NCBI GenBank assembly: GCA_950295325.1 | Contig: OX485804.1 | Coordinates: 28,582,001 to 28,646,000, forward strand | Reading direction: 5' to 3' | Origin: Polytrichum commune | Taxonomy: Eukaryota > Streptophyta > Polytrichopsida > Polytrichales > Polytrichaceae | DNA: 64,000 nucleotides | In this document: positions 1,971-48,600 of the stretch, one piece after another | How the letters are laid out: every line of letters starts with the position of its first letter | Position numbering within the stretch: position 1 is the stretch's first letter | Program-made: the position numbers and the translations under genes | Notes under the pieces: generated by a model | What the model was told of the DNA's origin: nothing | Databases searched by the model: none | Seen by the model: only the letters and a program-made list of their open reading frames with translations

Positions 1971-1978
1971 ACTGGTTG
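1971..1978. repeat. 8-bp target-site duplication, left (ACTGGTTG)
   Basis: ACTGGTTG lies immediately left of the hAT terminal repeat and is repeated exactly at 18638-18645. Eight base pairs is the standard hAT duplication length. Keeping one copy and deleting the element restores the LINE reading frame. Confidence 0.95.
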
Positions 1979-1991
1979 CAGGGTTGTCTAT
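1979..1991. repeat. hAT terminal inverted repeat, left
   Basis: CAGGGTTGTCTAT is perfectly inverted at 18625-18637. It starts with CAGGG, a common hAT terminus. Next inside are copies of GTCGTGACGG and its complement CCGTCACGAC, which also occur in the right subterminal region. Confidence 0.95.
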
Positions 1992-2075
1992 TGTGTCGTG
2001 ACGGAGGGTAATCCCGACATAATGTCGTGCCGTCACGACATTATGCCGGATGCTGTCTTTATCCTGACGGACTTG
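1992..2075. promoter_or_regulatory. Left subterminal palindromic motifs of the hAT element
   Basis: GTCGTGACGG near 1995-2004 and CCGTCACGAC near 2030-2039 form an inverted pair with TGTCGTGCCG between. The same words recur at the right end (about 18556-18592). Clustered short motifs next to the ends are where BED-finger hAT transposases are known to bind. Binding here is inference. Confidence 0.5.
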
Positions 2076-2192
2076 AATTTTACCGATTTTTTTGTGTAAT
2101 TACATTAACCCATTTCTGACACGTAGGATTTACAATGTCCACGTGTGATGACATGTCAGCAAAGTAAAGGTAAAGTGGGGAAAAATTTACTA

Positions 2193-2650
2193 GAGCCCGT
2201 CCGCCCCCCCGTCCGCCTCCGTTCCCAACCCCCGTTCCCCCCCGTCCGCTCCCGTTCCCAACCCCGTCCGCTCCCGTTCCCAACCCCGTCCGCTCCCCCC
2301 TCTCCCGTCCGCCCCCCCCCCCGTCCGTCCGCTCCCCCGTCCGCTCCCCCGTCCGCCCCACCCCCGTCCGCTCCCCCGTCCGCCCCCCCCGTCCGCTCCC
2401 CCCCATCCGTCCGCTCCCCCTTCCGCTCCCCCGTCCGCTCCCTTGTCCGCTCCCCCCCCCTCCGTCCGCTTCCCCGTCCGCTCCCTTGTCCGCTTCCCCG
2501 TCCGCTCCCCCGTCCGCTCCCTTGTCCGCTCCCCCCCCCCCGTCCGTCCGCTCCCTCGTCCGCTCCCCCCCCTCCGTCCGCCCCCCCGTCCGGTCCCCCC
2601 CCCCCCTCTGTCCGGTCCCCCCCCCCCTTCTGTCCGGTCCCCCGTCCGAT
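2193..2650. repeat. CCGTCCGC minisatellite 1, upstream of the transposase
   Basis: About 460 bp of degenerate tandem units of roughly 9-14 bp with core CCGTCCGCTCCC, interspersed with C runs and some GTTCCC. Long open frames across it on both strands are composition artefacts. It ends just before a TATA box and about 245 bp before the transposase start codon. Confidence 0.9.
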
Positions 2651-2658
2651 TCGAATAC

Positions 2659-2665
2659 TATAAAT
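2659..2665 (+). promoter_or_regulatory. TATA box for the transposase gene
   Basis: TATAAAT in the context TACTATAAATTGAGG lies directly downstream of the minisatellite and about 230 bp upstream of the ATG at 2896. The leader may hold an intron, because TTTGTATTTGCAG at about 2869-2881 looks like a splice acceptor just before the start codon. Confidence 0.55.
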
Positions 2666-2895
2666 TGAGGGTTCAAGGTGCCATTTTTGCCTCCACTGAC
2701 ATAGTGTGTCTCAAGTCTTTTGATTCTCCTTTGAGGAGTGAGGATTGAATGCGTGAGACCCGAATGCAGAGGATACTTTGTCCAATCTAGTGACTGTGAA
2801 TTAGGGTTGCCCTTGTGGCACTCTTGAACAGGACCTAGTATGCGATCAAAGTTACTTGCTCTAACTTGTTTGTATTTGCAGGTTTTGTTGAAGTC

Positions 2896-5800
2896 ATGCC
2901 ACGCCGAAATGATGCATGGGATCATTGGTACGAGGATAAGGGGATGGTTCCCGGTAAATCACAAAGGCAGGTTAAATGTAGGTTTTGCCCGTTCGTCATA
3001 TCTTACCGAGGAAATAGAATGTTGGCCCACCTTGGTTATAGACCTCCTGTAGGGGGTGCTTGTGATGTTTCCACATGTAGGATGGTACCCCCGCATATTA
3101 GGGTCTTGTTTGAACATTGCGGAGGCATTGTGCCCTTACATGTAGGCATTGTAAATGAGGACTCTCCGGTGCCAGATATTGTACCTCTGAAGCCTATTAT
3201 AGCGGACTCCGTAATTAGTGAAACAGAGCCTTTGCTTATGTCCCAATCCACTCAACATTCTGATGTTGTGATATATGGCACACCTCCTCGTGAATTACGT
3301 CAACTCAACATAACGGAGGGGTTCAATGTGTCAACAAAACAACTCCTTGATAGAGCATGGGCAACGGCTTTTTATGAAGCTAACATTCCTTTCAACATTG
3401 TGAGACATCCTGCATTTGTTCATGCTGTGCGTGAAACTGCCCGTCATCGAATGCCAGCCTACACACCACCATCGTACAATGCCATCCGTACGAAGTTGTT
3501 AACTGATAAAAAGGTTGACCTAGATAGGCAAGTGAAGGAGAAGATGGGAAATTCCGTTGAAAAATACGGTGTTACAATATGTTGTGATGGACAGGACAAC
3601 GTGCAAAACCGACCTCTCCTAAACGTTCTCCAATGCGGCACAAAGGGAGATGTTTTCTTGGGTAACATTGATACCACGGGAAATCACAAGGATCATGTAT
3701 ACGTTGCTGCTCAAATTCAACCATTTGTGGAAAAGGTTGGTCGACATAATGTGGTCCAGATTTGCACCGACAATGCCCCAGTTATGGCCTCCGCTGCTCG
3801 CAACTTGATTCAAGCAAATCCCGATCTATATTTTCAAGGATGTGCTGCGCATTGCCTAGATCTCCTCTTAGAAGATTGGGGGAAGGAGGAATGGGTGAAA
3901 AAGTTGGTAAAAAAGGCGCGCCATATTTGTGTTTTTATCAAAAACCATCATGCTTCTCAAGCTATATTCCGGAGGTTGTCACCAAATCTCTCACTCCGCC
4001 TACCTGTAGAGACCCGTTTTGCAACGAACTTCATCATGATAGATCGTCTTCTTCAAGTACGCAATGCTTTGGAAAGAATGGTGGTTGATGAGGATTGGCC
4101 TACTCTAATGCGTGATATGAGGAGGAGATCTCGCACCTCTTACATGAAGGGCTCTGCTGTGTGAAGCTTTATACGTTCTGATGGATTCTGGAACACGTGC
4201 GAAAATTTCTTGTATATGGTGATCCTGGTTGTTAAAGCTCTTCGTGTATTTGATGGCAAGGCGCCTGCAATGGGAATGGCTTGGAGGGTCATGCATGATT
4301 TACAAACCCATATTCGTGGATTAAGTAAACCTCCATTTCGCTTAAGCCCTGAGCTTGCTGCAAATGCTATGCTAACGTTTCAAAATAGATGGAGGTTGAT
4401 GTTGAATGATCTACATTGGGCTGGAGCGATGTTAAATCCGCTTCTACGTGGTTGGGCCCCACTCCATGAGGATGAGAATTCGAGGACAATCCTAAATCGA
4501 GTTCTTCGTAGGCTTGCTCAAGATGAGGACACTTATGTCCAAATCCTCCACCAGTACCAAAATTTCTTTGAAAATCGAGGGCCTTTTGCTGATTCTACTG
4601 ACCCGAGCGTGCATGCCGCACCTCTCCATGAATGGTGGGATGCAATGGGAGGTGGAGCTAAAGCCCTCCAAACAATAGCAAGACGTATCCTTGCACAAGT
4701 ATGTTCCGCATCCGCATGTGAACGCAATTGGAGCATGTACTCATATGTTCACAACAAGAGTCGCAATCGCTTGAAGCATAGTCGTGCCGAGGACCTCGTC
4801 TACATATATACCAATAGTAGGCTCATTCGACATCGGAGGGGCCCAAGACCTGCGCAATGGTACGAATTGAATGAGGTCCATTCTGACGATGACCTTGACG
4901 AAGAAGATGACAACGAAGATGACGTGGATCCAAATGATAGTGCCGGAAATGATGCTGACAACAATGTTGATGACATCGACTTTGATTTGGATGACCTCGA
5001 TTCCGAGAATCATGATTCAGAAGATGAGGATGGCAATGGTAGTGATGGAAACCTTGGGGTGTTTGATTTTGATGAACCGGATGTCCCCCAACATAACGAC
5101 GGAATGCATGACGATCATGAGGGGTCTATTGGAGAACCGCCTTTTGAAACTCTCCACATTGGACAAGGGTTTCGCCCTGCCCATAATGTTGCTATGGGGG
5201 CAAGTGAGAATGTAGGAATTGAAGTAGATTCCTTGCAACCTCGGAGCGATTCTCTTTCTTTTGGTGAAGGTGACAATGTACTACCCGCAAATGAGCCAAC
5301 GCACGTTCAACAGGATCCATTTCCAGCCCGAGTACATTCTGAATCCATGGACGCCTCCCTCATATCCAACCATCGTATAGAAGATCAAACGCCCAATGTT
5401 CCTGAAATACCTACAACTCGATTCCGTGCTCTTCAAAGAACTGCATCAACCTCTACGGTGCAAGTGCATGCACAAGGTCAACGTCGTCCTCTCACTCGAA
5501 GTATTGCCAATACTTCTAGATTGGGTGTTTCACGTGCAACTGCGGTGGGTGCTACTTTGGTTGCTATACACAATGTTTCAAGAAATGTTACTACAGAGGC
5601 GCCACGTCGTCATTCTGTTCGTCGACATGTTGTTGAGAACATACCAATTGCAATTCCATCCGCATTAGTTTCACTTCCACACAGTCAATCCAATGGAACA
5701 TGTGGCCTTGGAGTTGGAGGCGGAAGTACAACGGGGGATGTTTTTATAGATGGAAGTAGAGATGAAGTGCACTCAAGTCGTGGTACGGGTGGAGGGCGTC

Positions 5801-6093
5801 AGAGAACTACGAGAGGTGTCAAACATACTAGGAAGAGGTATCAGGGAAGATCGCTTCCGTTTACTGCTGAAGACTACAATGAAGATGAGGGTAGACCACA
5901 TCTAGATGAAAATGGCATACATGATGCAGAGGGCTCCCGGCCGACCAAGAAGATAATTTTCTCACAATGTGACCGAGAGTTGCATCTTCGGAGCGCGACT
6001 CCCCAAACGGATGATGATTGCAGCACAGACGAGTCTGAAGAGGACCCAAAATGTGTTGAAGCAAATGATCCCACAGTACGGATTCGAACGTAA
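2896..6093 (+). pseudogene. hAT transposase (BED finger, DUF659, C-terminal dimerisation, acidic tail), one internal TGA
   Basis: The ATG at 2896 begins MPRRNDAWDHW. A BED-type finger follows (CRFC, then a His near NRMLAH). The DUF659/RNase H-like core has CDGQDNVQNRPLLNV, IDTTGNHKDHVY, QICTDNAPVM and CAAHCLDLLLEDWGK, then RLPVETRFATNFI. A TGA at 4162-4164 breaks the frame, but the same frame resumes with FWNTCENFL and runs to TAA at 6091-6093. The hAT dimerisation region follows (LHEWWDAMGGGAKALQTIAR, SASACERNWS, RNRLKHSRAEDLVYIY; about 4625-4830). Beyond it lies an unusual tail of about 420 residues, first very Asp/Glu-rich (about 4879-5090), then Ser/Thr/Arg-rich. Such transposases excise and reinsert DNA at TIRs with 8-bp duplications. 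The TGA could be a nonsense mutation of CGA or lie in an unrecognised intron. Confidence 0.9.
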
Positions 6094-6792
6094 TGGTTTT
6101 GCACAAATGTGGTATTTCGGTGCTCCCACGTACTCCCATAATTTATTACTTACGTCAAAATTGATACAAGTTACAACCTTAGGGCCTTCGGTAAGATATT
6201 TAGACCACAAAGCGAACGTTACCTTCGAAGTTGTAACATTTTATTATAGTAATAAAATTATTTATTGCATGTTTTTGAAAATTTTGAAAATACAATATGG
6301 TTGTCAACTTAGCATTGCAATTAATCTCCAATAACATGTTATGCCTTTATTAATTACTATTTTGTATAATTCTTACTGTGAATGGAGTTTTATGTTTATT
6401 TATTGAGCTTCTTAAAGAATATGCTTTTATAAATATTGCAATCCCCTATTGCTCGATTGTACATGCTTCGTTGGTGACATCCTCTTTTTGAGGACATTTC
6501 TATCCGTTTTATATAATTATATCTTTATGTGGTATTCAATATTGATTATGTAGTCAATAGTACTTTTGGTTAGACTATCATATGAATTACTAATATTCAA
6601 GTAAGTTTTTAAAAGTTTCAAATAACATTAAAACATGTGGCATCCATATGTTATCTTTTACACGATCTTAGAAATGACAACTTGTCGGTAAATCCTCTTT
6701 ATATTACATATACTTTGAACATGAAATATGTTCATTGTGTCCAAAGTCTTCATCCGTTCCTATACAACTTCCTAAACATGGTACAAAAATGC
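6094..6792. other. AT-rich intergenic spacer inside the hAT element
   Basis: It lies between the transposase stop and the end of the converging RING-like gene. I see only short chance frames and AT-rich sequence, presumably the 3' regions of both transcripts. Confidence 0.5.
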
Positions 6793-8648
6793 CTAATCCG
6801 AATCGAGGTCTATTCTAGCTGAAGTAGATCCTCGTCGTGCTCGTGATGATTCCCCCGCTTTCATGCTTCGCGTTGTTCCATGGGTGAGGTATGGACGACT
6901 ACCAGGAGACAATGAAACGGCATTACGTGGTCTAGGCCCACCATTTAGCCATCTCAATACCACATCATCCGCAACTCTATGCAAGAGTGCATCAATTGCA
7001 GCCAACTGCAGCCTGTTCTTGTGGTACCCCACCTCTAACTGCAATTCATATCTCGGATCCCGTTCCGTAGGCATGTCATCTGCATCTTCTTCCAAATCAT
7101 GCTCCGATACTGATTCGAGACCTGCTACATTGTACCAAGGAGGATGAATGCCTCTCTTTAATTGTCTGCTGGTTGAATCCCAATGTCATTCAAGAGTTTG
7201 GTACAAAAATCTTTTCAAGCAATGATCGGAGGGCTTGTTGGGATACAACTCGTCTGTAACATACAAAATTTGACGTGCATTCCGTGTCCAGTCGCCATCT
7301 CTGTTCTCGTGCCATAGCTCAACCTTGGCACAATTGTATAACCAACTCCACTCAACATTCTCCCCATCAAACTCTTGAAGATCGAAGGGAAAGTCCCATG
7401 GTTTTAATACCCAGTCGTTAAGCATGTAATCCCGAAGGCCAAATTGGAGGTACAAACGAGGGTGGAAGGGTGATCTGCAATGAGGACATTGGCGTTTCTT
7501 GATCATATTCCCTATTAGACATTGTGGATGGAATTGGGCCCCATATGATCCAACTTGATAGCATCCCTCTGGGCCAAATGGACATTGGCAAATCGCACAT
7601 GCGGTTCCGTCGAAGACCATTGTATGTGGATTTGGCCATAACAACTCACCCCTCATGCGGAATGGATATTCATGCACTTGGGTTACATCCCAATAGTGAT
7701 ATGGGTCGGTCACTTGACGCCAATCGATGCTCCCGCTTGGCAATGTCCACTCATTATCCCTATCTCACCTACTAGGGTACATCTGCTCATCTTCTGGCCA
7801 TGACGTGAGCATCATATTCCGCATTCTCTGATTGCGGTTCCATTCTTTCTGGATGCTCTCAAACTCAGCTTCAAATTGATGAGCCTTGGCCATAGCAAGC
7901 AATGTGTTTGTCCTCATATTTTTGCGCTCCACAATCGCATCCAACAGAAATTTCTTCAACCTCGCCAATCTTGGCTTCGTGATCAACAACCACTTCATTG
8001 ACCACTTGAAGTTGTTGTTGCATGTCCACCACCTCCTTTTGCAAAACCTTCATCTTTCCTCGCATTACTTCATTCCTCATACATACCTCCAGAGCTTGTG
8101 ACTTTGCAATCTTAGCCTCCTGTAAAGCTGCGTCCCTCTCTGCTTCCAAAGACTGAAGGTTAATTGGTGTACTACTTGAACTGCTAGCCTCCCCCATCGT
8201 AAGTGTTGCAATTCGATTTTCCAACTCGAAAATCATCGTTTTATACTCACGAATTTCCAACGCATGTTGCTTACGCAATTCCTCCATTCTGCTGTCCGTC
8301 GGGTCCGCTCCATGTTCACCAAGGTTTACCTCGTCTAGGACCTCGTTAACCACGTCGTTGATCAGGTTGTTAACCTCGACATTTGCCTCCATGCCCTCAT
8401 CCATATGCTCAAACGCCTCCTCGATGGCCATCTCCACGTCATTGGCTGGTCGTTTACGATTATGTGGTTTTTTTGGTTCCCGACCCTCTGGAATTGGGGC
8501 CCCAGGCTCGTCCACTAGTCGAGGATTCCTCCTGAACCACTCCGGAACGGGAGTGTATGGAATATCTGGAATTGTGCATTTAGTGAATGCAATTCCAATA
8601 CCCCCAAATTTTTGACCATGCAGGGTAGCCAAACTTGACCAATCCACC

Positions 8649-8651
8649 CTA
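8649..8651. repeat. CTA target duplication flanking the CACTA element (pair at 10373-10375)
   Basis: CTA precedes the terminus at 8652 and is repeated directly after 10372. Three base pairs is the CACTA standard, and removing the element plus one copy rejoins the RING-like gene in frame. Confidence 0.85.
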
Positions 8652-9059
8652 CACTAGTAGAAAATTTTGCGTCCGGATCAACAAAAAAATGTTGGTCGCG
8701 GTTGTTACTTAGGACGCGTTGACCTGGACACTCTGTAACACGGTTTTGTTGATCTGTTCTGTTGATCTGGTCATCAAAAGTTTACCAACAAAATTAAAAT
8801 TAAAATTAAAATTAAAAATCAATTTTTTTACTTTCCGGATTTTCCGGAAATTTTTATTTTTTACGGCCTGGATGTTCGGGCAAAAAAAATTAATTTCAGA
8901 CTACTACCACAGCACAAACTACGTCCCCATCAACTCCAACATACTCACCTAGGCTTGCTAGGCTAGGCTAGAGGTCATAGTTGCGGGCCAAGGGATTGGA
9001 ACCCCCAACCTTGGGCTTCCCACTTGGTGGTTTTAACCACCAAGTCAACACACTTTCTT

Positions 9060-9545
9060 GATATAAAGGGAGTGCTTTAAACCCTTTTATAGTGCACCCT
9101 CCATAAATGTTACACCTATAAGTGTTAACCCTCTCTAAATGTTAACTTTCTTCTACTCCCCACATATTGCACACTATAAATGTTAAACGTGTTAATTGTT
9201 AACAAAATGGTACTCCCTTCTTTGTAAATTTAACTTTATAAATGTTAACAAATGAAATACAACCATGAGGTGGATGATAAAGACTACACATTCAATTACC
9301 AAAGAACCATTGATTCATACTTCACCCATGATTTGTAAACTTGATATTGAAATAAAGTTTTAATTGGGTTTGCAATTTTATGAATGGTATTCTCTCATAA
9401 GCACTCTTCACAATTGCTTATATTTATAAATGTTAAGATTTGTATATTGCTCAAAAAAATAATTTTATGATTGTTAGATGTTAACACCTTTATAAATGTT
9501 AACTTTGATCCACTCCCGGAGGTTAACATTTATAGAGGGCAGACT
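9060..9545. repeat. Dispersed repeat with ATAAATGTTAAC motifs, nested in the CACTA element
   Basis: The segment is bounded by related inverted words (near CCCTCCATAAATGTTA and AACATTTATAGAGGGC) and contains many ATAAATGTTAAC copies. About 280 bp of it matches, in opposite orientation, 14955-15233 inside the same hAT. Possible MITE; no clear target duplication seen. Confidence 0.5.
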
Positions 9546-9569
9546 GTATGTGAGGAACACTTCAAACCT

Positions 9570-10085
9570 ATTTACAATATATTTTGATATATACTATTTA
9601 AATAAATTCTTAGTATATACGTATATCCTAAAATAGATTATTTATGTATATTATGAAATATACTATTTATGTGTTTTTTGACACATACTATTTACATATA
9701 TTTTGACATGTTCTATATACATATATTCTGAAATGTAGTATTTACTTATATTCTAAAATATAATATTAACATATCTTCAAAAATATACTAAAAATAATAT
9801 ATTGCAAGTTATACTATAAATAATGTATTTCAGAATACACTATTCACAGTATAATATATCATATCATATTTTTAATATATTGCAGATTGTACTATTTATA
9901 GTATATTTTAAACTATACTATTTTAAGTATATTACAGATTATACTATTTATACTATGTTATGTAATATACTATTTATACTTTATTATGTAATATACTATT
10001 TATAATATAATCTGCATACACTATTTATAGTATACCCTGCACTATATTATTTATAGTATAATCTGCAATATATTATTTACAGTAT
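9570..10085. repeat. AT-rich tandem repeat (TATACTATTTATAGTATA-type)
   Basis: A run of imperfect units of about 30-40 bp built on TACTATTTATAGTATA and similar words. It lies inside the CACTA element and encodes nothing convincing. Confidence 0.7.
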
Positions 10086-11232
10086 TTAGTAGTATTCAAG
10101 ATTCCAAAAGATTCCAAAAGATTCGAATGGTTTAAAAAGATTTCAAAATACTCGAATTTTTTTCCAAAAGGATAATGGAATATTCTAAAGATTCTAATTT
10201 TGCGTGAGTTTTGTTGATTTGGCCATTGTACTACTCGAATCAACAAAAAGTAGGCACCAAACTGTTGGTTTTGGCAAGAAGTTACAAATTCAGTGAAATA
10301 GGTCATTGCAGTGCCCAAATCAATACAAATCTGTTGATTTTCTGTTGATTTGGTCATGATTTTCTAGTAGTGCTAACTCGCAACACGTGCTCCGCATACA
10401 TCATACACGCCACCGACTTTGGAATTGCACTCTTGGGCCATCTATCCAAATTGGAGATACTTCTAAGTATCGTTAGGAATCTCCATTTTGCCTCCACGTC
10501 ATCAAGCTGCATATAACTCGCACTGATGGCCTTGCAGTGTCGCTCGTGACAAGGTCTTGGCCACAACCGATCAAAGTGAGGGAAGCCCACGTACTGCATT
10601 GCAGTCTTCACTGACCACGGTTGTGGTACATTCTCCCAACCTGCCCTGGCTTTTTGGGTGTTGCCATCATAAACATCCCACTCCAACCCAGCGGCCTTGC
10701 GTACATGTGATCTGTGACAACCTGATCCCCCACTTGCCATGTCTCCAGATCCTCCACTTGCCATGTCTGGAAATCCTTCACTTGCCGGATCCACCCAAAT
10801 TGTAGTTTCTAATTCTAATCTAGAACTCTAATTTTTAAATTACTAATTGCACTTCATAATAGTGCTACAAAACATCCAAGCATACACTTCAAAATAGTGT
10901 TGCTGTGGAATTAGTTCAAAAATGTCGTTAAAAATTAAAGTACAAAAATTCAGCACACCCTTCGAGCACCCCGCTACCAGCGCTCACGCAGAGGCCAGTT
11001 GACTGGGCGCGTCACAAGGAATATGCCAAAAAGGCAATATGCCACGTCACAAGGGAACGGGTCCACGTGGATCACACCCACAAACAGGTCAGTAAAAAAA
11101 GTATAAAAGGATCCCAAAAAATGGATCCTTAACTCCTCCGAGCACCACGCTAAACCCCGCACTCTGTAGTAGAGGAGGGTCGTCCGGGCGCCCACAAGGA
11201 GTGGAGTGGGGTATGTAAGTGGTCCCCTCCAC

Positions 11233-11239
11233 TTATATT
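11233..11239 (-). promoter_or_regulatory. Candidate TATA box for the RING-like cargo gene
   Basis: On the minus strand the sequence reads GAATATAAGTGG. It lies immediately downstream of minisatellite 2 with respect to the gene starting at 10794, about 440 bp before its ATG. The position mirrors the transposase and kinase promoters. Confidence 0.45.
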
Positions 11240-11700
11240 CCCCTCCATCCGCTCCCCGTTTCCACCCAGTCCGCGCCCGTTCCCCTCCCAGTCCGCACCC
11301 GTTCCCGCCCCCGTCCGCACTCGTTCCCCTACGTCCGCCCCCCGCGTTCCCCTCCAGTCCGCGCCGCGTTCCCCCCAGTCCACACATGTTCCCTCCCGTC
11401 CGCGCCCGTTCCCCGCCAGTCCGCACCCGTTCCCTCCCGTCCGCGCTCGTTCCCCCCCAGTCCGCACCCGTTCCCAAACGTCCGCCCCCTCGTTCCCTAC
11501 GTCTGCCCCCTCGTTCCCTACGTCCGCCCCCTCGTTCCCTACGTCCGCTCCCCTCAGTCCGCTCCCCCCCGTCCGCTCCATGTTCCCTTACGTCCGCTCC
11601 AACGTTCCTATAAGTCCGCCCCATGTTCCCCTACGTCCGCTTTAGAGTTCCCCTGCGTCCGCTCTAGCGTTCCCATACGTCCGCTCCCGAGTTCCTTTGA
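11236..11700. repeat. CCGTCCGC minisatellite 2, upstream of the RING-like cargo gene
   Basis: About 460 bp of tandem units of roughly 18-19 bp combining GTCCGC with CCCGTTCCC or TCGTTCCCTA. It is the same sequence family as arrays 1 and 3. Long frames across it on both strands are low-complexity artefacts. Confidence 0.9.
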
Positions 11701-12150
11701 ATCTGCACTTTTTAACTTTTTTTGGAAGTTTGGACATAGTCTCGGTTTTTTGGCTCTCAAAAATTCATATGAAGTCCAAAAAATGATTTCTTGGTATCCA
11801 TGGATAGGTAATGAAGTCCTCTACATGAATATGCAATAATATTTCTACTGCACATTCCCGCGTCCCCCCATCCGCACCCCATCTAACTTAGGCCCTTTGC
11901 AAATAATATATGTGACACTAAATATCATTACCGGTGTACTTATCCACACAAAACTAATGAAGGATCCCTCAAGCAACAAAGTAACCAATGTAGTATGATG
12001 ACCAATAAATTATCACCCCTATGGAGACAACGATGTACAAGTAATGACTTTATTATTGCGACGATGGTACAAATGCCTTTTATAAATCACATACATGAAC
12101 AAACCATACACGATTTAATATTCCACTTCATTCCGTCAACTTGACTTCCG

Positions 12151-12700
12151 TCATGGCAACCTCGTAGATGCTTGTGGCTTCCGTCGAGGGTCCATTTTTG
12201 GGAGAGGATTCGGTCGAAGTAAATCAACATAGCTAATCGTTCGGTCTTTCATCCGTTCCTTCAATGGTAGCCGATGAGGCGATAATCCTCTCCTCTTCCT
12301 ACAAAAAGGCAAAGTCCTTGAAGATTCTCCCGCTACCTTGACATCTTCAATGTCGATTGAAGTCTCCTCCACATCCACATCCCCGGGCTTCTCCAAAATA
12401 TCCGTACACAAATCAATCAGATCTCCACCCACGCATTGTGTGTTGTCATTCTCCACCGCATCGATCTCAAAGTTGTCCGCATATCGTCGTTGGTCCTCCT
12501 CCGCCCTCATCCTCCAAGCTTGTGTAGATTGTGAGAAGGGAGTCATGACATTCATCACGAAATCGATCCCTAGCACATCTCTCATCTCTCTCACGCTCGG
12601 TTGATGGATTGAATGGAATATCAGGTTCACCTAAATTTTCTATCTCCTCATCACATCCTAGACCCTCAAACATGTATCTCTTCTCTCCCATCCTATCCAT
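12151..12700 (-). pseudogene. Small cargo gene of unknown function (frameshifted)
   Basis: From ATG at 12700 a first frame reads MDRMGEKRYMFEGLG and on to the PFNPS region. Near 12610-12565 the coding sense appears to move to another frame, which runs to a stop at 12151. It contains MRAEEDQRRYADNFEID, an acidic stretch and a basic Pro-rich end (KMDPRRKPQ). Joined it would be roughly 180 residues. No family recognised. A TATA-like CAATATATAAG lies about 45-55 bp upstream on the minus strand (near 12750). It shares orientation with the other two cargo genes. Confidence 0.45.
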
Positions 12701-12956
12701 GATACTCTACCCTCGTTATATGTATGAGTCTAAATGCTCTACTTATATATTGAGCTCAAAGGACTTTATGAAATATACAATATTTGATGTAATCCAAGAT
12801 GTAGAGGATCCAATTCTCGTTGGTAGGATAAAGACAACACAATAGGAATAAAAAGAAAGTTGGTGAAGTCAAAAAGTTAGTTGCACTTTTTGAAAAAGTC
12901 CTCCGACACCCGCATTGGAAACCTCTTTGAAGCTTCTATATTTGATGGGTTGTCCT

Positions 12957-13247
12957 TTCATTCAACAATTCACATATTTGAGCTTCAACCTTAGTGGTTC
13001 ATATAGTTTCACAACCCACACGCATTCGAATGTCATATTAATTCAACAAAGTACATATTTGTGCTTCAACCTTTGTGGTCCATATGGTTTCATAACGCAT
13101 ATTAGGCATCCGAATGTCATCTTCATTCAACAATTCACATATTTGAGCTTCAACCTTAGTGGTTCGTATGGTTTCACAACCCACACGCATCCCCTTGCCC
13201 TTTCATTCGACAATTCACATATTTGTGCTTCAACCTTTGTGGTTCAT
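12957..13247. repeat. Tandem repeat, about 4 copies of about 80 bp
   Basis: Units share AATTCACATATTTG, GCTTCAACC, TTGTGGTYCATA and GGTTTCACAACCC, starting near 12957, 13042, 13123 and 13203. No coding role seen. Confidence 0.8.
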
Positions 13248-13276
13248 AAACCCTAAACCCCTAAACCCTAAACCCT
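13248..13276. repeat. Short telomere-like tract (CCCTAAA)n
   Basis: About four CCCTAAA-type units, one with an extra C, follow the 80-bp tandem repeat. This is the plant-type telomere unit at an interstitial position inside the hAT element. Confidence 0.7.
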
Positions 13277-14325
13277 ACGTCATTCCAAATTGCTACCACG
13301 TATGTGCCATTGTTTTGTTCTCTCACTCATATAGAAGTGTTTCCATACATGGTTTGAGGGTTTAGGTTCCCAGCTTTCCAACGAACCCACCCGCTTTTTT
13401 TTACGATGTCTACAACGAAAGTTAAACGTTCGCAAATCGCGAGGACTACTTCAAGTTGGCACAATCTCTACTTAGACATATAACTTATGGTATACATTGG
13501 GGTTTTTAGAAGGGGTCATGAACGCACGTGATTCTCAAACATAATGTAGAGTGCATCCCCCGAGTTCCTATAGGCTTCATAAATATATCTTACCAACACC
13601 TTACACAAATTAGAACATTCTAGAAAAACAAATTAATATGGTCCACATTGATATTAAACTAGGGATTTGGTGTGGGCTTAAATTTAATGTGGCCCACATT
13701 AGTGATCATTTGGGGGGGTGCACTATACTAAATCCGTATGAGTATATGTGAGTGCACAAAAGAGGTATTGATTTGAACTTTGTTGTATTATGTATTATTC
13801 TTCACAAAATTATAAGTTGTAGTTATGTAAATATATAGAATAATTCTAAAATATATACAACATCTCTACTAACTTGTATGGTAGTGTCATTAGATTTTAT
13901 AGAATAAGGTTTATTTTATTTTAGTATTGGCTTAAACTGGTACATAAAAAGAACCAACCACAAGTGAACATACGATCTTACATATCATTTGATGGTAGAC
14001 TTCAAAACAATAATTGCATTAGCTTTTATGACATGTATTACAAATCAGAGTATGGGAGGATTGAATGGAAACAGATGCTTAGGGACTTGGAAAAAGCCCC
14101 GGACGTGGCCTACCATGACATTCTTAACAAATTTGATTTGATTTGGGGGGTCAAAGGTCTTATTGTGACCCGTAGCAACTTAGTCCCTACTTGGAAGGAT
14201 AGGCCTCAAATGAGCATTATTTCTAGATTTCCACTTAGGTTGCGCTGTTTCGGCTGGGTTGGTTGTATTTTCAATTTGAATTTTCAATTTGTGCCAAAAA
14301 AAGAATAAGACATGTATTGCAAATA

Positions 14326-14913
14326 TAAGGGCCGGTTTACAATATGGCCAAACTTTGAGAGGTTCAACATTTGGACCAATGAAAATGCTGAAATGCCCAA
14401 AGTCCGTCCTCTCGGCCTTCACACTAGAGGCCGAAGTCCAAAGGACGTGGCCTCCAAAAGAGCCTAGGTGGCAACACTTTTAGGAAGTTATGGCGCCAAG
14501 AGTTCGGCCTCTCGAGCAAAGATTGGGTATAGCAAAATGCTCAACCCAAACTTCCGTCGAGAGGCCGAACTTTTTTTTCATTAAAATAATCAATCATTGA
14601 CAAGATCTTGGCCGTTAGATTGGAGGGGTTATTTTGAGCAAGGAATAAAGTGGCATGCTCCTTTGAGTTTGGACTTTGGGATTGGCCTTTGGAGGCTTCA
14701 CACTTTGGCCATCCAAGCCGAGAGGCCGTGGGAGTTCATGGCCAAAGGTTTGGACTTTGCGCTTGGCCTTTGGAGGCTTCACACTATGCCCAACTAAGGC
14801 TACCCTTACTATATTTTCTTGGCTATTTTCAGTTCATTTCTTTGAACTATCAACAAAGTTGGGCCACTCAATCGCACGGCCTCTCAACTTGGACGGCCAA
14901 GAATATGTCCAAA
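14326..14913. mobile_element. hAT-like MITE, diverged copy inside the giant hAT
   Basis: The internal part closely resembles the element at 57907-58407. Shared words include CTTCACACTAGAGGCC, GACAAGATCTTGGCCGTTA, GGCCTTTGGAGGCTTCACAC and CTCAACAAAGTTTGGCC. Ends are diverged (AAGGGCCGGTTTACAATATGG on the left). A short internal duplication of the GCCTTTGGAGGCTTCACAC part makes it longer. Confidence 0.6.
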
Positions 14914-14954
14914 CTTCCCAAAAAAAGTGATTGTGAATTATATAAATATAAATA

Positions 14955-15233
14955 TAAGCAATTGTGAAGATTCCTTGTGAGAGAATACCATTCATAAAAT
15001 TGCACACCCAATCAAAACTTTATTCAATATCAAGTTTACAAATCACGAGTGAATATGAATCAATGTAACTGGATGTGTAGTTTTTATCATCCATATTATG
15101 GTTGTATTTCATCCGTTAACGTTTATAGAGTCAAATTTACAAAGAAGGGAGTACCATTTTGTTAACTGTTAACACGTTTAACATTTATAGTGTGCAATAT
15201 GTGGGGAGTAGAAGAAAGATAACATTTAGAGAT
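14955..15233. repeat. Dispersed repeat, inverted copy of about 9120-9420
   Basis: Shares, on the opposite strand, GAGAGAATACCATTCATAAA, AGGGAGTACCATTTTGTTAA and CAATATGTGGGGAGTAGAAG with the segment inside the CACTA element. Confidence 0.7.
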
Positions 15234-15659
15234 GTTTTGGATCACGTGTACAACCGATATAACTATTGCAATATTGTGCTCAACTTTAGTTAACTAGATA
15301 TAACTATAGTTGACTACATTTTGTGGCATACCAAAATTAGAATAAATATAGGTAACTGCATTTTTTCAAGACATATCACAAACAACTATAGTTAACTTGA
15401 ACTTAGCACATGGATGTGATAACAACGATGTGAAAGAAGGATGTGGCCTCACGAGAGGCGAGAACCTTGGTTAGCCTCCCATAGACTTCTTCTCGATTAT
15501 GGAGCAAAGGCCTCATGGAGTAGTATGAACATTGCACTAAGATCCATAAACCTCATACAATATACAAGTTTTGTATGAAAAAATGATGGCTTTATTTACA
15601 TGTCCAACGGTTACAAAATTGGTATGATTCAAAATTGTTGCAAAAAAAACAAAAAAAAT
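15234..15659. other. Non-coding spacer inside the hAT
   Basis: Includes AACTATAGTTAACT-type words related to the foldback repeat at 35.3-35.7 kb. No gene seen. Confidence 0.5.
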
Positions 15660-17583
15660 CTATTTTGCAGTGTCACGGAAGCACATTGTCGGGTTAACCA
15701 TGTTGTATGGAGGGGACTTCAAAATGTTCACTACGTGTGTGATGGTTGACCTTTCCGCTGGATTGGTCTTCGTCAATGAATCCAATGCTAACTCAAACCG
15801 CATATTCAAGCCATTTGGATCACTGTTTAGCTGAAACAAGGGGGAAGTCGCATCCCTGGCATAAATCTTCTTTGCCAAAGCACCCACTAAGAAGGATTTC
15901 GATAGAAACGTGTGCCTATGTTTCCGAGCCATCCTCACCGGAGAGGTGGATGTTCCACGCTGCCCTCGTACATGGAATAATTTTGGACCAGCACAGTTGT
16001 ATTTTGCTTTGTGCTTGTTCATCTCATCCACTGAATCTTTTCCATAGTTGGAGGGTGCGTCTTCACCTCCCCAGGATGCCATGCCCCAATCACACACACC
16101 AATGTAAACCGTGTTCTCACGGTCTTGTGGGAAATGCAGCATGACATTGTTGGGATTAAGGTCATTGTGCAACACGTCATGCTTGTGCACTACATCCACA
16201 ATGCACATTAGAGCCCATGCCAAATAAGCTCGATGCCTTCGATATACAACCAACCGTTTCCGTGCTTCAAAGTTTGCCCCGGGCATGTGAAGGATTGTGC
16301 ATGCGCTCGTGGGTTTCCGGAACGCTGAAGTCATAGATCCTCATGTTTTTCAAGGAGCCTCCATTCCACCACATCGAATAGGATTCGTATGTTTTCATAT
16401 TGAAGTATTGTAGCTTGATTACTTCAGGATGATCTACTGGACACGCCAATGCTTCAACTGAACGTTCCTTTCGATTCTCCAAACTATTCGTGGCCTTCAT
16501 GGTCTTCCCAACCCACTCTATCCAGCTAGGGATGAATGATGCTCCATGAATTGCGACTCTCCGCACCACTCCGAAGGTCCCTTGGAAGATTTCCTTATCC
16601 AAGGCTTTGATCTCCGCATTCCTAGGCAACCATATGACACCCTGCCGGCCCTGAGTGGCAATGTTGTCTGCCATCTGCCTGTCAATAAAAATGGGAAGGT
16701 TGCGGGCGGATGTTCCTTTTGCTACTATTACGCCTCTTTTCCAATTCTCTAGCTTCATGTACAGCTCGGACTTCCTGCCACTACTACTTCCCTCGCTAGG
16801 ATGCACAGCATCATATGCCATTGTTGGATTGTAGATTGCTTCCACGGCTTGTTGTTCAATCCAGGTGCCCCAATCGCTCATGCCCCTAGCATCTTCAAAC
16901 TCCGCTCCAGCCGTGGCTTCCGTGAGAATAAGAATCAAATCGTTCCTCACCAAATCCAACCCCTTTGTACCATCATTGAGGTATTTTTTTTCCAAATAAA
17001 CCATGCTGTTATTTCTAAACCACTCCAACAGCACGACCCTACAATGGTTTCGAGCCTCATCGATCCGCGGGTCGCGTTTGCCTCTATTTTTCCTTTTCCT
17101 CGATTGCGAACCTGAAACCCCGAACCCCTCCTCCGTCCCTTCCGAAATTACTGGGCGTTTTTGTCCCCGTCTTTCACCATGCTCCGAACCCTGAGGTACA
17201 TCACGTGCAGGGCTCTCCGGTCTTGATGTCCGCCGTGTCGGAGATCGTGGTGGCACGGACTCTCCATGAGTGGCTGCATTTATATCGGTGGAACTGCCTG
17301 AGCTTGGTCCCCTTCCTGTTCTCCCTCTATGTCCATTGTTTCCCCGACTCCCACGTGTTCCACGGCTTCCACGTGTTTGGTTGCCTCCTGAATGGCCAAC
17401 TGCAAAGAACTCTTCGTCAAACCGAAAAGGATCTGGACGTGGGGGACGTGCTGCAGTGCTTCCACTTCCGGCCTTGCTTCCTGTACCCTCTCCAGTATGC
17501 GCAAGTGGAGTGCTTTGGAGCCAAGCACGGTGCAGCCTCGTATCCTCGTCTTGGTAAGGAGCAATGTCCTCCCCCTCCATCAT
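15660..17583 (-). pseudogene. Cargo gene: protein-kinase-like, frameshifted
   Basis: Translation starts at 17583 (MMEGEDIAPYQDED). The first 200 or so residues are Gly/Arg/Ser-rich (RGSRGTRGSRG, about 17390-17330) with a basic patch SRKRKNRGKRD. A kinase N-lobe follows: IFQGTFGVVRRV resembles the glycine loop and VGKTMKA holds the likely ATP-binding Lys. The coding sense then changes frame near 16340-16270 and the C-lobe appears: VLHNDLNPNNVMLHF (catalytic loop, HND in place of HRD) and CDWGMAS (DWG in place of DFG), ending at 15660. Asp and Asn of the loop and the metal-binding Asp are kept, so the ancestor could have been active. The frameshift makes this copy a pseudogene unless spliced. 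Substrate unknown. Confidence 0.75.
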
Positions 17584-17804
17584 GAAAAAAACCGCGTGAG
17601 TGAGTGAATGTAAAAAGGAGTGAGTGAATGTAGAAATGAGTGCGTGAATCTGGAAAAAAAATTGCGAGGGTTCCCCCACAATTTGCCCTGCCCTCCCAAA
17701 CCCCCTGAGACCCGCGCGGTGCCGCTGTCCTTGGGACGGCAACAAGGTCTCGGGTCCCTTTGTGGTGGGAGGAGAGGAAAGTGAGGGGAACTAAAACCCC
17801 ACGG

Positions 17805-17813
17805 CTTTATATA
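17805..17813 (-). promoter_or_regulatory. TATA box for the kinase-like cargo gene
   Basis: On the minus strand it reads TATATAAAG within CCTATATAAAGCC, about 225 bp upstream of the ATG at 17583 and 65 bp downstream of minisatellite 3. It is a near-ideal plant TATA sequence. Confidence 0.65.
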
Positions 17814-17878
17814 GGCAAAGGGGAGCACAATCATTATGGGATCCCGGTCGGATTTGACATGGGGCACGAAAAGGACGT

Positions 17879-18365
17879 ATGGGGAACGTGGGAACGCGGG
17901 AACGCGGGGGCGGACGGAAGGGAACGGAGCGCGGACGGGAGGGAACGGGTGCGGACTGGGGGGAATGCGGTAGGGAACGGGTGCGGACGTTAGGAAACGT
18001 GTGGGAACGTGAACGCACGGCGGGGGAACGTGGGGCGGACGTGAGGGAACTTGGGGCGGACGGAGCCCTCCGCGTTCCCCCCGTCCGCCCCCGCGTTCCC
18101 CCGTCCGCCCCCGCGTTCCCCCGTCCGCTCCAGCGTTCTCCCCCCCGTTCCCAACCCCCTTCCGCCCCACCCCCGTCCGCTCAACCCCCACCCCCGTCCG
18201 TTCCACCCCCTCCACCGTCCGCTCCACCCCCCTCCCCCGTCCGCTCCACCCCCTCCCCCGTCCGCTCCACCCCCGTCCGTCCGCCCCACCCCCGTCCGCT
18301 CCACCCCCGTCCGTCCGCCCCACCCCCGTCCGCTCCACCCCCCTCTCCCGTCCGCCCCACACCCT
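17879..18365. repeat. CCGTCCGC minisatellite 3 (inverted halves), upstream of the kinase-like gene
   Basis: From about 17879 to 18060 units read GGGAACG(N)GGGGCGGACG on the plus strand. From about 18062 to 18365 they read CCCGTCCGCTCCA, so the block is an inverted repeat of arrays around 18061. Same family as arrays 1 and 2. Confidence 0.9.
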
Positions 18366-18539
18366 CCTTAGTCATATTTTTCTACTTTGATTTTAACAGA
18401 ACCCTAAACACAATGGCAAAATGGTTTACTTGGCAAGGGAAATATGCACATCTACGTCGGCGTTTTCTGCCACATAGGACGCCACCTTGGCAAGAAGGTA
18501 AGTATTTTACCCACCCTAGTCCATTCCCCCTATGTTGAC

Positions 18540-18624
18540 CCTACGTGGACCCTATTGTGTCGTGACGGAGGGGTCCGTCACGACACGACCTGACATGACG
18601 GCACGACACCGTCATGACGTCGCG
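18540..18624. promoter_or_regulatory. Right subterminal palindromic motifs of the hAT element
   Basis: ATTGTGTCGTGACGGAGGG at about 18554-18572 also occurs next to the left end (1990-2008). CCGTCACGACA and several GACGGCACGAC words follow. They are candidate transposase-binding repeats. Confidence 0.5.
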
Positions 18625-18637
18625 ATAGACAACCCTG
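18625..18637. repeat. hAT terminal inverted repeat, right
   Basis: ATAGACAACCCTG is the exact reverse complement of 1979-1991. It is followed by the second ACTGGTTG duplication at 18638-18645. Confidence 0.95.
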
Positions 18638-18645
18638 ACTGGTTG

Positions 18646-45694: not shown

Positions 45695-48600
45695 ATGGCA
45701 GCCGTGGCGTTCCTTCGAGGACCTATGGGCGCATCTTCGTGTTTCTCTCCGAGCGCGGTGAATTCGTCGCCTACCAATTCGCGAATCGCAGCTGTAATTG
45801 GAAGAAACAGCCAGAGGAAGTTATCTCCAATTTCCAAATTTGCGCGCCCTCAGATTGACCTGTCCTCTCCGTTTCTTGGATCTAGCCAAGGTCGGGTCAT
45901 TTTGGTGCCCAGAAAATGCGCAGGCAAGAAGAGCGAGGGTAAAGAAGAGAACACGAGTAAGAGTGGAATCTGTGCTTCCCTTGCAACACCTCTAATTGCC
46001 GCAACGGACACATGGGGAACCTGGACTGTGTTACTTGCGGCAGGCTCCTTCGGCTTATGGTATGAGTATTCCCATTTTCATTGTGGGGCAATTCAGTATG
46101 GTTTTATATGGTATAATGTATTTAAAGACCAGGAAGTTGGTGGGGGTCCTTGAGCTCATAATTTGGATGAAACACCTTGCATTGGTTTGCTGAAAACTGA
46201 TAACAGTTTTTTTGGGATTAGCACATAAAATGTCAGTGACCAGCGTTTGATGTGTTGGAGTCAGTTGTGGACACACACATATCCTTCAGGGTTGAGTATC
46301 TTTTGTGTGCTATTTCATCTAGCATTTAGTAACATTTAGGTATTGACCTATGACTGTCAGGCATTGATTGATCCGATGTTGTAGTTTGATGTCATGAAAA
46401 CAATGTAGAATCAGTGTTGATGTATGAATCCAGAGGTTTGTGATGTTATACCCTAAGCATTCCGATCTTCTCGTCTGTCACTGCAAGAGCAATTTGTTTG
46501 GGTTGAGTTGTTGTAATGTATTTGAAAACCATGTAGTCAGTGGTCCTTAAGCTGATAATTTGGATGCAACATCTTGGGTCGGTTTGCTGAGAGTTGGTAG
46601 CACATTTTTCATGGCGCTTTGCTTTGCGTGCATCATGACAAAATGCAAGTGACCAGCGTTTGATGTGGATGCATACTACCTATCCTTCAGGGTTGAGTAT
46701 CAACATGGATTCAGCTCATGATTCAACCTTTTAGGTCTTTCAATCACAAATTGTAGACACCAAAGTTCAAATCTGCAACCCTATGTTTGGCAGGCATTGA
46801 TAGCTTCAATGTTGTACTTTGATCTTTAACGTGAAATTAGTGTTGATGATTTATGAAATTAGAGGTTTGTGATGTTACACCCTAAGTATCTCCATCTTTA
46901 GCTTCAATGGTCTCTGGCACCGTGACTACAGGCAAGCACGATCAAGTTTCAGAAATGAGGAATGGCATTGCACCATAATCTCTTGGTTTTTGCTTTTCTG
47001 GCCAGTTTCACAATCTGCCTCCACCTGATCTTGTTGGTTGTGGATGAAGGTCAGAAAACACGCAGTGGGGAAGCGCCCTAAGTGGGGCATTAGTGAGCAC
47101 ACTTGTGGGTCTGTTGGCAAGCAATGTGGGGCTCATTGCAGCTGAAGCACCAGCTTATGTTGCTGTGAATAAGTATCTTCTACCACTAGCTGTCCCACTG
47201 CTCCTCTTTGCAGCGGACATGCGGCGGGTGCTGGCCTCCACCGGCCGTCTTCTCACTATTTTTTGTGTAGGATCTGGTAAGGCTTCCAAATACATTAGAG
47301 TTACCCTTCAACTCAATAGGACTTTTTTGTTGGGTGTTTGTTCCCAATGATTTTCCATTGATTGTTTTGCATGCAAAAGGAGTAATTTCTTCCCACTTGT
47401 GGTGCATGCTGGGAAGTAGTGTTTAAATTAGAAGAATAAGCAATTATTACGGCTCATTAAGGGCCAAGCTCATTTTAGCACCTCTTGGCATGCCAAAACG
47501 AGTTTGAGCGCTCAATGAACCACTATAGAATATTCTTCAATCAAACCTCCACACTTCCTCCAAGTATGCACCTAAACTTACTGAAACATGGAAGGTGTTG
47601 TATGCAGAACAACCAACTCCGGACTAAAATTCATGTTGAGGTAGAGGATAACTGTATTACCTCGTCACAAGAAGCTTTGTGCTCTCAGCAATTGTATTGT
47701 GGGATTGCATGACAAGCGAAAATTTTCAAGGCAGTAGCAAATCAGATTACTTTTCTGTCATGGTTGAGAATCTATACATTGTGTCTCCTTTGGTGCAGCT
47801 GGGTTGTTCCAGGCGGGCTTATTATTCTGGTGGTATTAAATGGCATGGCAGTGGCTACAACATTGGGTACACTTGCAGCAATGGTGCTGGTGCCTCTCAA
47901 ATCCTTGGGGCCTGATGGCTGGAAGATTGCCGCAGCGTTAATGAGCCGCCACATTGGAGGAGGTCTGGTTTTCATCTGCTTCTCTGAAATTTTTCTTGGG
48001 TTCAGTAGGTCTGAAAGGGTACAGCTATATGTGTAACCTTCATACCATCTGGATGCACAATTTCTCAATCATTAACCAAATGTCCATGTGCTAGCTATAT
48101 ATGTGAGAATCTGGAGATATAAATTCCTAGTTGAAAGACAAGGCAACTTATCAAACCAAGGAGTATCTCAGTCACTATTCAAATGTGCTTGTTCTAGCTT
48201 TATGTGAAACCTTTGTAGAATCTGGATGCACAGCTTCTTAGTTGAAAAGCAAGGCAACTTATGAAACCAAGGCGTATTTCTCAACCACTAATCAAATGTC
48301 CTTGTTCTTTCAATGTTGTCCAACCTAAGTGCTGCAGAGATTGTGAATTTTGATTGCAGATGATGTTTACTGAGAAACCATTCTCGTTCTGTGTGGCAGC
48401 TGTAAATTATGTGGCTGTTACTGAGGCCTTAGGGGCCTCTCCGTCCATAGTAGCAGCTGGGCTAGCAGCAGATAATCTCATATGTGCCCTCTATTTCACC
48501 TCTATTTTTGCTTTGGCATCGTCAATCCCTCCAGACCCGGTGGTATCACCAAGTTCAGGTACCTGATCTCAAAGTCCATATCATGTCACACACCTCCAAT

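Follow-up and report, generated by a model that had tools for sequence, protein, structure and literature searches.

A large hAT transposon family of the moss Polytrichum commune with a recurrent set of accessory genes

The element in the window and its genes

We analyzed a 64,000-nucleotide stretch of DNA from the moss Polytrichum commune (assembly GCA_950295325.1, contig OX485804.1, positions 28,582,001–28,646,000; hereafter the window), in which positions 1979–18637 are a hAT element carrying a transposase gene and three further genes (Table 1), and compared this copy with the whole genome (408 Mb with seven chromosome-sized contigs, denoted C1 etc.). Seven chromosomes would agree with Polytrichales, and a light-harvesting gene of the genome scores about 364 bits against 7xqp_9/8htu_9 (chain 9 of Physcomitrium photosystem I, Lhcb9, a moss protein), compared with about 240 bits or less for other green-plant LHC chains and 375 bits for a polyprotein chain of entry 9vfj. 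The exact 13-bp terminal inverted repeats (TIRs) and the perfect 8-bp target-site duplication (TSD) described in the initial annotation were both located. The host frame is also restored, as had been claimed: in silico excision of the element together with one TSD copy gives a continuous 462-amino-acid minus-strand frame of a long interspersed nuclear element (LINE) over the junction, and the frame adjoining it matches RVT_1 (3.5e-31). A search at 0 or 1 mismatch found no third CAGGGTTGTCTAT site inside the window. Two CAGGGTTGAGTAT sites with at most two mismatches to the TIR, both oriented alike and separated by 401 bp, are present at 46287–46299 and 46688–46700, possibly by chance.

Table 1. 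Features of the hAT copy, in window positions
Feature	Position	Strand	Remarks
Left TSD	1971–1978		ACTGGTTG, exact 8 bp
Left TIR	1979–1991	+	CAGGGTTGTCTAT, exact 13 bp
Tandem array	2196–2650		G+C-rich, CGTCCG core; upstream of transposase gene
hAT transposase gene	2896–6093	+	DUF659 and Dimer_Tnp_hAT; 1065 amino acids when intact
RING-like gene	6793–10785	-	767 amino acids when intact; here split by the CACTA-type insertion, with two in-frame stops and a frame change
CACTA-type insertion	8651–10366		Inside RING-like gene; ends CACTAGTAGAAAA...TTTTCTAGTAGTG, 3-bp TSD CTA
Tandem array	11238–11696		CGTCCG; upstream of RING-like gene
SML, small accessory gene	12151–12700	-	186 amino acids when intact; frameshifted here
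Tandem array	12951–13248		84-bp; upstream of SML
Open frame	13925–14308	+	127 amino acids; between SML and kinase-like gene
Kinase-like gene	15660–17580	-	635–638 amino acids when intact; one frameshift here
Tandem array	17905–18367		CGTCCG; upstream of kinase-like gene
Right TIR	18625–18637	-	Reverse complement of CAGGGTTGTCTAT, exact 13 bp
Right TSD	18638–18645		ACTGGTTG, exact 8 bp

The transposase is of the DUF659 type, in agreement with the initial annotation: the intact protein matches DUF659 (8.5e-35) and the hAT dimerisation domain PF05699 (3.8e-10) in Pfam, and its N terminus shows a C-x2-C...H pattern by eye, with no zf-BED match in Pfam. Three extra genes, previously called RING-like, kinase-like, and unknown, are present as well, but the open reading frame at 10357–10827 is not a separate gene. 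It is the 5′ part of the RING-like gene, cut off by the CACTA element, and the third extra gene is instead the SML frame (12154–12700), for which a Pfam scan of the intact protein gave no family. The RING-like domain resembles that of RNF38 (8.6e-5). The kinase-like protein carries GTFGVV (Gly loop), K359, HNDLNPNN (HxD), DWG (DxG), and GPE (APE-type), and most of these motifs are conserved in a second kinase family of the genome that is 25% identical. The 127-amino-acid open frame (181 amino acids in copy F) has no Pfam match and is possibly a fragment of another repeat.

On its reading frames the window copy is inactive, because its transposase gene has a nonsense codon (TGA at 4162–4164, where other copies read CGA), its RING-like gene is split by the CACTA element, and its kinase-like and SML genes are frameshifted. 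C>T or G>A accounts for 16 of the 22 copy-specific changes in its transposase gene, the pattern of methylated-DNA decay, and the CACTA insertion is absent from copies such as F (blastn, F vs. the window copy).

Copies, insertion sites, and gene order across the genome

Exact genome-wide matches to CAGGGTTGTCTAT number 494 on the plus strand and 515 on the minus strand (reversed pattern: 0 and 1). Adjacent ends in the first 34.6 Mb of C1 form 11 pairs at 10.8–18.4 kb and 24 pairs at 0.5–1.9 kb. Protein searches returned at least 99 scored transposase copies, about 95 kinase-like and about 95 RING-like copies, and more than 100 strong SML matches; the best candidates were scored in this one genome, and the counts are lower bounds. 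The RING-like, kinase-like, and SML genes all lie within 25 kb of the transposase in 71 of the 99 copies (random places: mean = 0.85, maximum = 5), so that the recurrent multigene cargo claimed in the initial annotation is found near at least 71 transposase copies. The test it had proposed, on TIR ends 10–20 kb apart and their interiors, likewise spoke for a defined family. An artefact of nested insertion was rejected because the gene set is identical near these 71 copies.

Eight large copies besides the one in the window were read at both ends, and seven of them have exact 8-bp TSDs (GCTGCTGG, ATGACATT, GTAACACC, AAGTCGAT, GTGATATA, CTTCCACA, and CCCCGTTT), each at a different target; no TSD was found at copy G, which was read at both ends. 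Segmental duplication as the whole explanation was rejected because the TSDs differ between copies, although two small duplicate clusters do exist (C1:21.87–21.97 Mb and C2:35.85/35.94 Mb). The large copies measure 14.6–18.4 kb, and long aligned blocks between copies are about 94–97% identical. Judged by sequence comparison, the whole 15–18 kb unit was mobile in the past. Transposase genes are 97.2–99.5% identical within the main-group copies read, and 93–94% identical between these and a rearranged subfamily. Intact genes are single-exon open frames: all four are open and full length, or nearly so, in copies C and I, and copy F has all four as long frames with an early stop near the RING-like gene end.

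Exact 8-bp TSDs also occur at two short copies, and the common ends and TSDs suggest that the 0.5–1.9 kb copies are internal-deletion, non-autonomous derivatives. The coordinates place a 1.1-kb non-autonomous member (C1:7131924–7133036) within the kinase-like gene belonging to the larger copy that has its transposase at C1:7126834. Copy B (C1:14039782–14055416) appears nested in another family element (C1:14034798–14061601), and its target matches a segment at window 14120–14150.

We denoted the transposase, RING-like, SML, and kinase-like genes as T, R, S, and K, with orientation given relative to the transposase on the plus strand. There are three main arrangements, T+R-S-K- (n = 37), T+R-S-K+ with the kinase-like gene inverted (n = 23), and K+S-T+R- (n = 9); all hold the four genes, and the set has therefore been kept while the order changed. 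In one rearranged copy of the third type (C1:46383500–46398092), the TIRs are exact and the two halves of the TSD (CCTGCGAG/CCTGTGAG) differ at one position; protein identity is 71–82%. CGTCCG arrays precede the transposase, RING-like, and kinase-like genes in both subfamilies, with 20–107 cores per element vs. 2.5–6.6 expected.

Selection on the accessory genes and their probable role

We estimated the ratio of nonsynonymous to synonymous substitution (dN/dS, or ω) by the Nei–Gojobori method with binomial P values, in pairwise comparisons of few copies. Between the main group and the rearranged subfamily, ω was 0.47 for the transposase (P = 2e-7), 0.55 for the RING-like gene (P = 6e-6), and 0.50 for the kinase-like gene (P = 2e-5), and these three genes are under purifying selection. 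Among the youngest copies dN/dS scatters around 1 (cargo up to about 1.3), which is what recent decay would produce. We conclude that the cargo is a set of accessory genes conserved in the family and not a one-off capture, because it recurs with most transposase copies scored, at independent sites, as single-exon frames, in a second gene order, and under purifying selection.

One of the accessory genes is found outside the family. SML homologs, 45–50% identical, lie inside a second transposon-like repeat of very high abundance, TE2, which has a transposase-like gene of SWIM type (2492 first-look candidates, loci including C6:19117900–19124400 and C4:5010000–5020999). The homolog and the SWIM-type gene are convergent at 2.4–3.6 kb at eight listed loci (random mean = 0.12), and one terminus, CGGACGACAYAGCTATG, is common to three TE2 copies with unrelated flanks. 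Pfam gave only SWIM, at 0.077, for the TE2 transposase-like protein. Between the hAT family and TE2, ω of SML was 0.44 (P = 1e-3). A relative of SML is thus carried by a transposon family unrelated to the hAT.

We consider it probable that the window element is a damaged copy of a defined, large, four-gene autonomous hAT family whose accessory proteins serve the element. The transposase would cut and paste the entire 15–18 kb unit, and the three accessory proteins would most likely keep it competent for expression or transposition against host silencing. The kinase-like and RING-like proteins may act on host or transposase proteins, and a DNA-binding element protein could act through the tandem arrays upstream of each gene.

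Several results weigh against this reading. SML shows no significant constraint between the main group and the rearranged subfamily (ω = 0.85, not significant). The RING-like protein matches zf-RING_2 below the Pfam cut-off (2.9e-5; 24.7 bits vs. 27.3), as the kinase-like protein does Pkinase (2.8e-6; 27.4 bits vs. 31.7). By motif reading, the RING-like domain has seven of eight zinc ligands, its CGAQFH being without the ligand that normally follows the third Cys (a distant RING relative at C6:21589268 reads CGHMGH), and we use the name RING-like only because one ligand appears to be missing. AlphaFold2 models of the kinase-like and RING-like proteins, built on shallow alignments, have predicted local distance difference test scores of 30 and 35 and leave both folds unconfirmed. 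A role in counter-silencing or host manipulation would follow by analogy with VANDAL/VANC only.

Among the other readings, it is possible, if tentative, that the kinase-like, RING-like, and SML genes form a toolkit exchanged between unrelated superfamilies of DNA transposons in the moss, one that counters silencing and is unrelated to VANC. Passive cargo and host benefit are both less likely. Kinases and E3 proteins of the RING type are frequent among host regulators, and constraint on a gene is silent on who benefits from it, so the cargo might consist of stress, defence, or immunity genes selected for the plant rather than for the element; we doubt this, as the copies are numerous, often decayed, and for the most part recent (transposase 97–99.5% identical in the main group), which fits selection at the level of the element, and SML recurs in an unrelated transposon.

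Slightly less probable still is transduplication of the kind known from Hatvine-6 or Pack-type elements, i.e., a single capture of a kinase, a RING, and an unknown gene from the host, which now ride along without serving the element. Capture of host sequence by plant hATs is documented, for instance in Hatvine-6 (PMC2528002), and the cargo dN/dS within the youngest copies would agree with this reading. Between subfamilies, however, purifying selection acts on the cargo with about the strength seen for the transposase, the four genes were retained after rearrangement, and SML is also in a second transposon. The initial annotation had noted that after a one-off capture the other copies would lack the cargo, or the cargo would match a single host locus with introns. 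The cargo instead recurs across copies; the genes are single-exon whole genes rather than intron-bearing host fragments of the Pack type matching a source locus; and the homologs found are decayed dispersed repeats only, with no intron-bearing host gene among them, though absence of a source locus is unproven.

Least probable is a composite origin, in which the kinase block (perhaps also RING and SML) is a separate mobile module hopping into, or recombining with, the hAT via the arrays: the block occurs in both orientations and at either end, the arrays flank genes and could serve as recombination substrates, and SML occurs in another element, but the outer TIRs are common to all arrangements and no TIR or TSD pair was seen bounding the kinase block alone.

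Known transposons and related repeats

To our knowledge, few large DNA transposons of plants carry a fixed set of several genes, and VANDAL/VANC is the main case in which anti-silencing by transposon proteins is understood in detail. We found no description of the moss four-gene hAT family in the open-licence literature. With other members of the hAT superfamily (Ac, Tam3, hobo, and Hatvine) it has in common 13-bp CAGGG TIRs, an 8-bp TSD, DUF659 with a C-terminal dimerisation domain, and short derivatives with matching ends. The complete hATs listed in grapevine measure 2–5.5 kb, with one family variable, their captures are mostly unique to a copy, and no hAT with a fixed multi-gene set was reported in that survey (PMC2528002), whereas the moss family measures 14.6–18.4 kb and carries three extra genes as a fixed set.

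The VANDAL MULEs of Arabidopsis (VANA/VANB/VANC) are alike in being autonomous DNA transposons with accessory genes. They differ in having a MULE transposase and a tested anti-silencing function, which for the moss hAT, with its hAT transposase, is only inferred; no Pfam match to VANC-type domains (DUF1985/DUF287) or to a MULE transposase was obtained in the intact moss hAT proteins. VANC target motifs are arrayed in tandem in non-coding parts near element genes, either upstream or within the gene, and turn over between copies (PMC5735166), and by analogy the hAT arrays may be comparable to these. The Ulp1 accessory domain is found in DNA transposons of different superfamilies, namely MULE and CACTA elements (KI-MULE and Cactavine; PMC2528002); it crosses superfamilies as SML does, but is a protease and not a kinase, RING, or SML protein.

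The fungal ToxhAT (now ToxTA) and Starships are likewise large, cargo-bearing DNA elements (14 kb). Starships use tyrosine recombinases, and Pfam scans of the moss element gave no DUF3435 tyrosine recombinase. ToxhAT has a TA TSD and 74-bp TIRs, is present in a single copy per genome, and has been reclassified away from hAT (PMC12506042). After reclassification of this best-known case, the moss family shows that large hATs with recurrent cargo do exist. Its gene set suggests that this plant transposon supplies helper proteins of its own. The family has about 100 copies, of which several appear intact, shows recent activity, and has one gene in common with an unrelated transposon, and it offers a tractable case for the recruitment, retention, and exchange of helper genes.

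Weaker matches to the cargo were also followed. A 44% RING match at C6:42602820 was rejected as an outside homolog because it is a decayed member of the same hAT family, and the weak matches to the RING-like protein belong to a decayed family scattered through the genome. For the kinase-like protein, the weak matches (C6:9379723 and others) were rejected as a host source gene because they are a separate repeated intronless family, 25–29% identical; this family is seen at C6:9379200–9380900 and about 10 similar loci, decayed copies included, and may belong to a further mobile element as its accessory gene. Light-harvesting genes, at least 14 of them and nearly identical, are clustered in tandem within 95 kb at C5:1751760–1846160, and each gives its match in a single exon.

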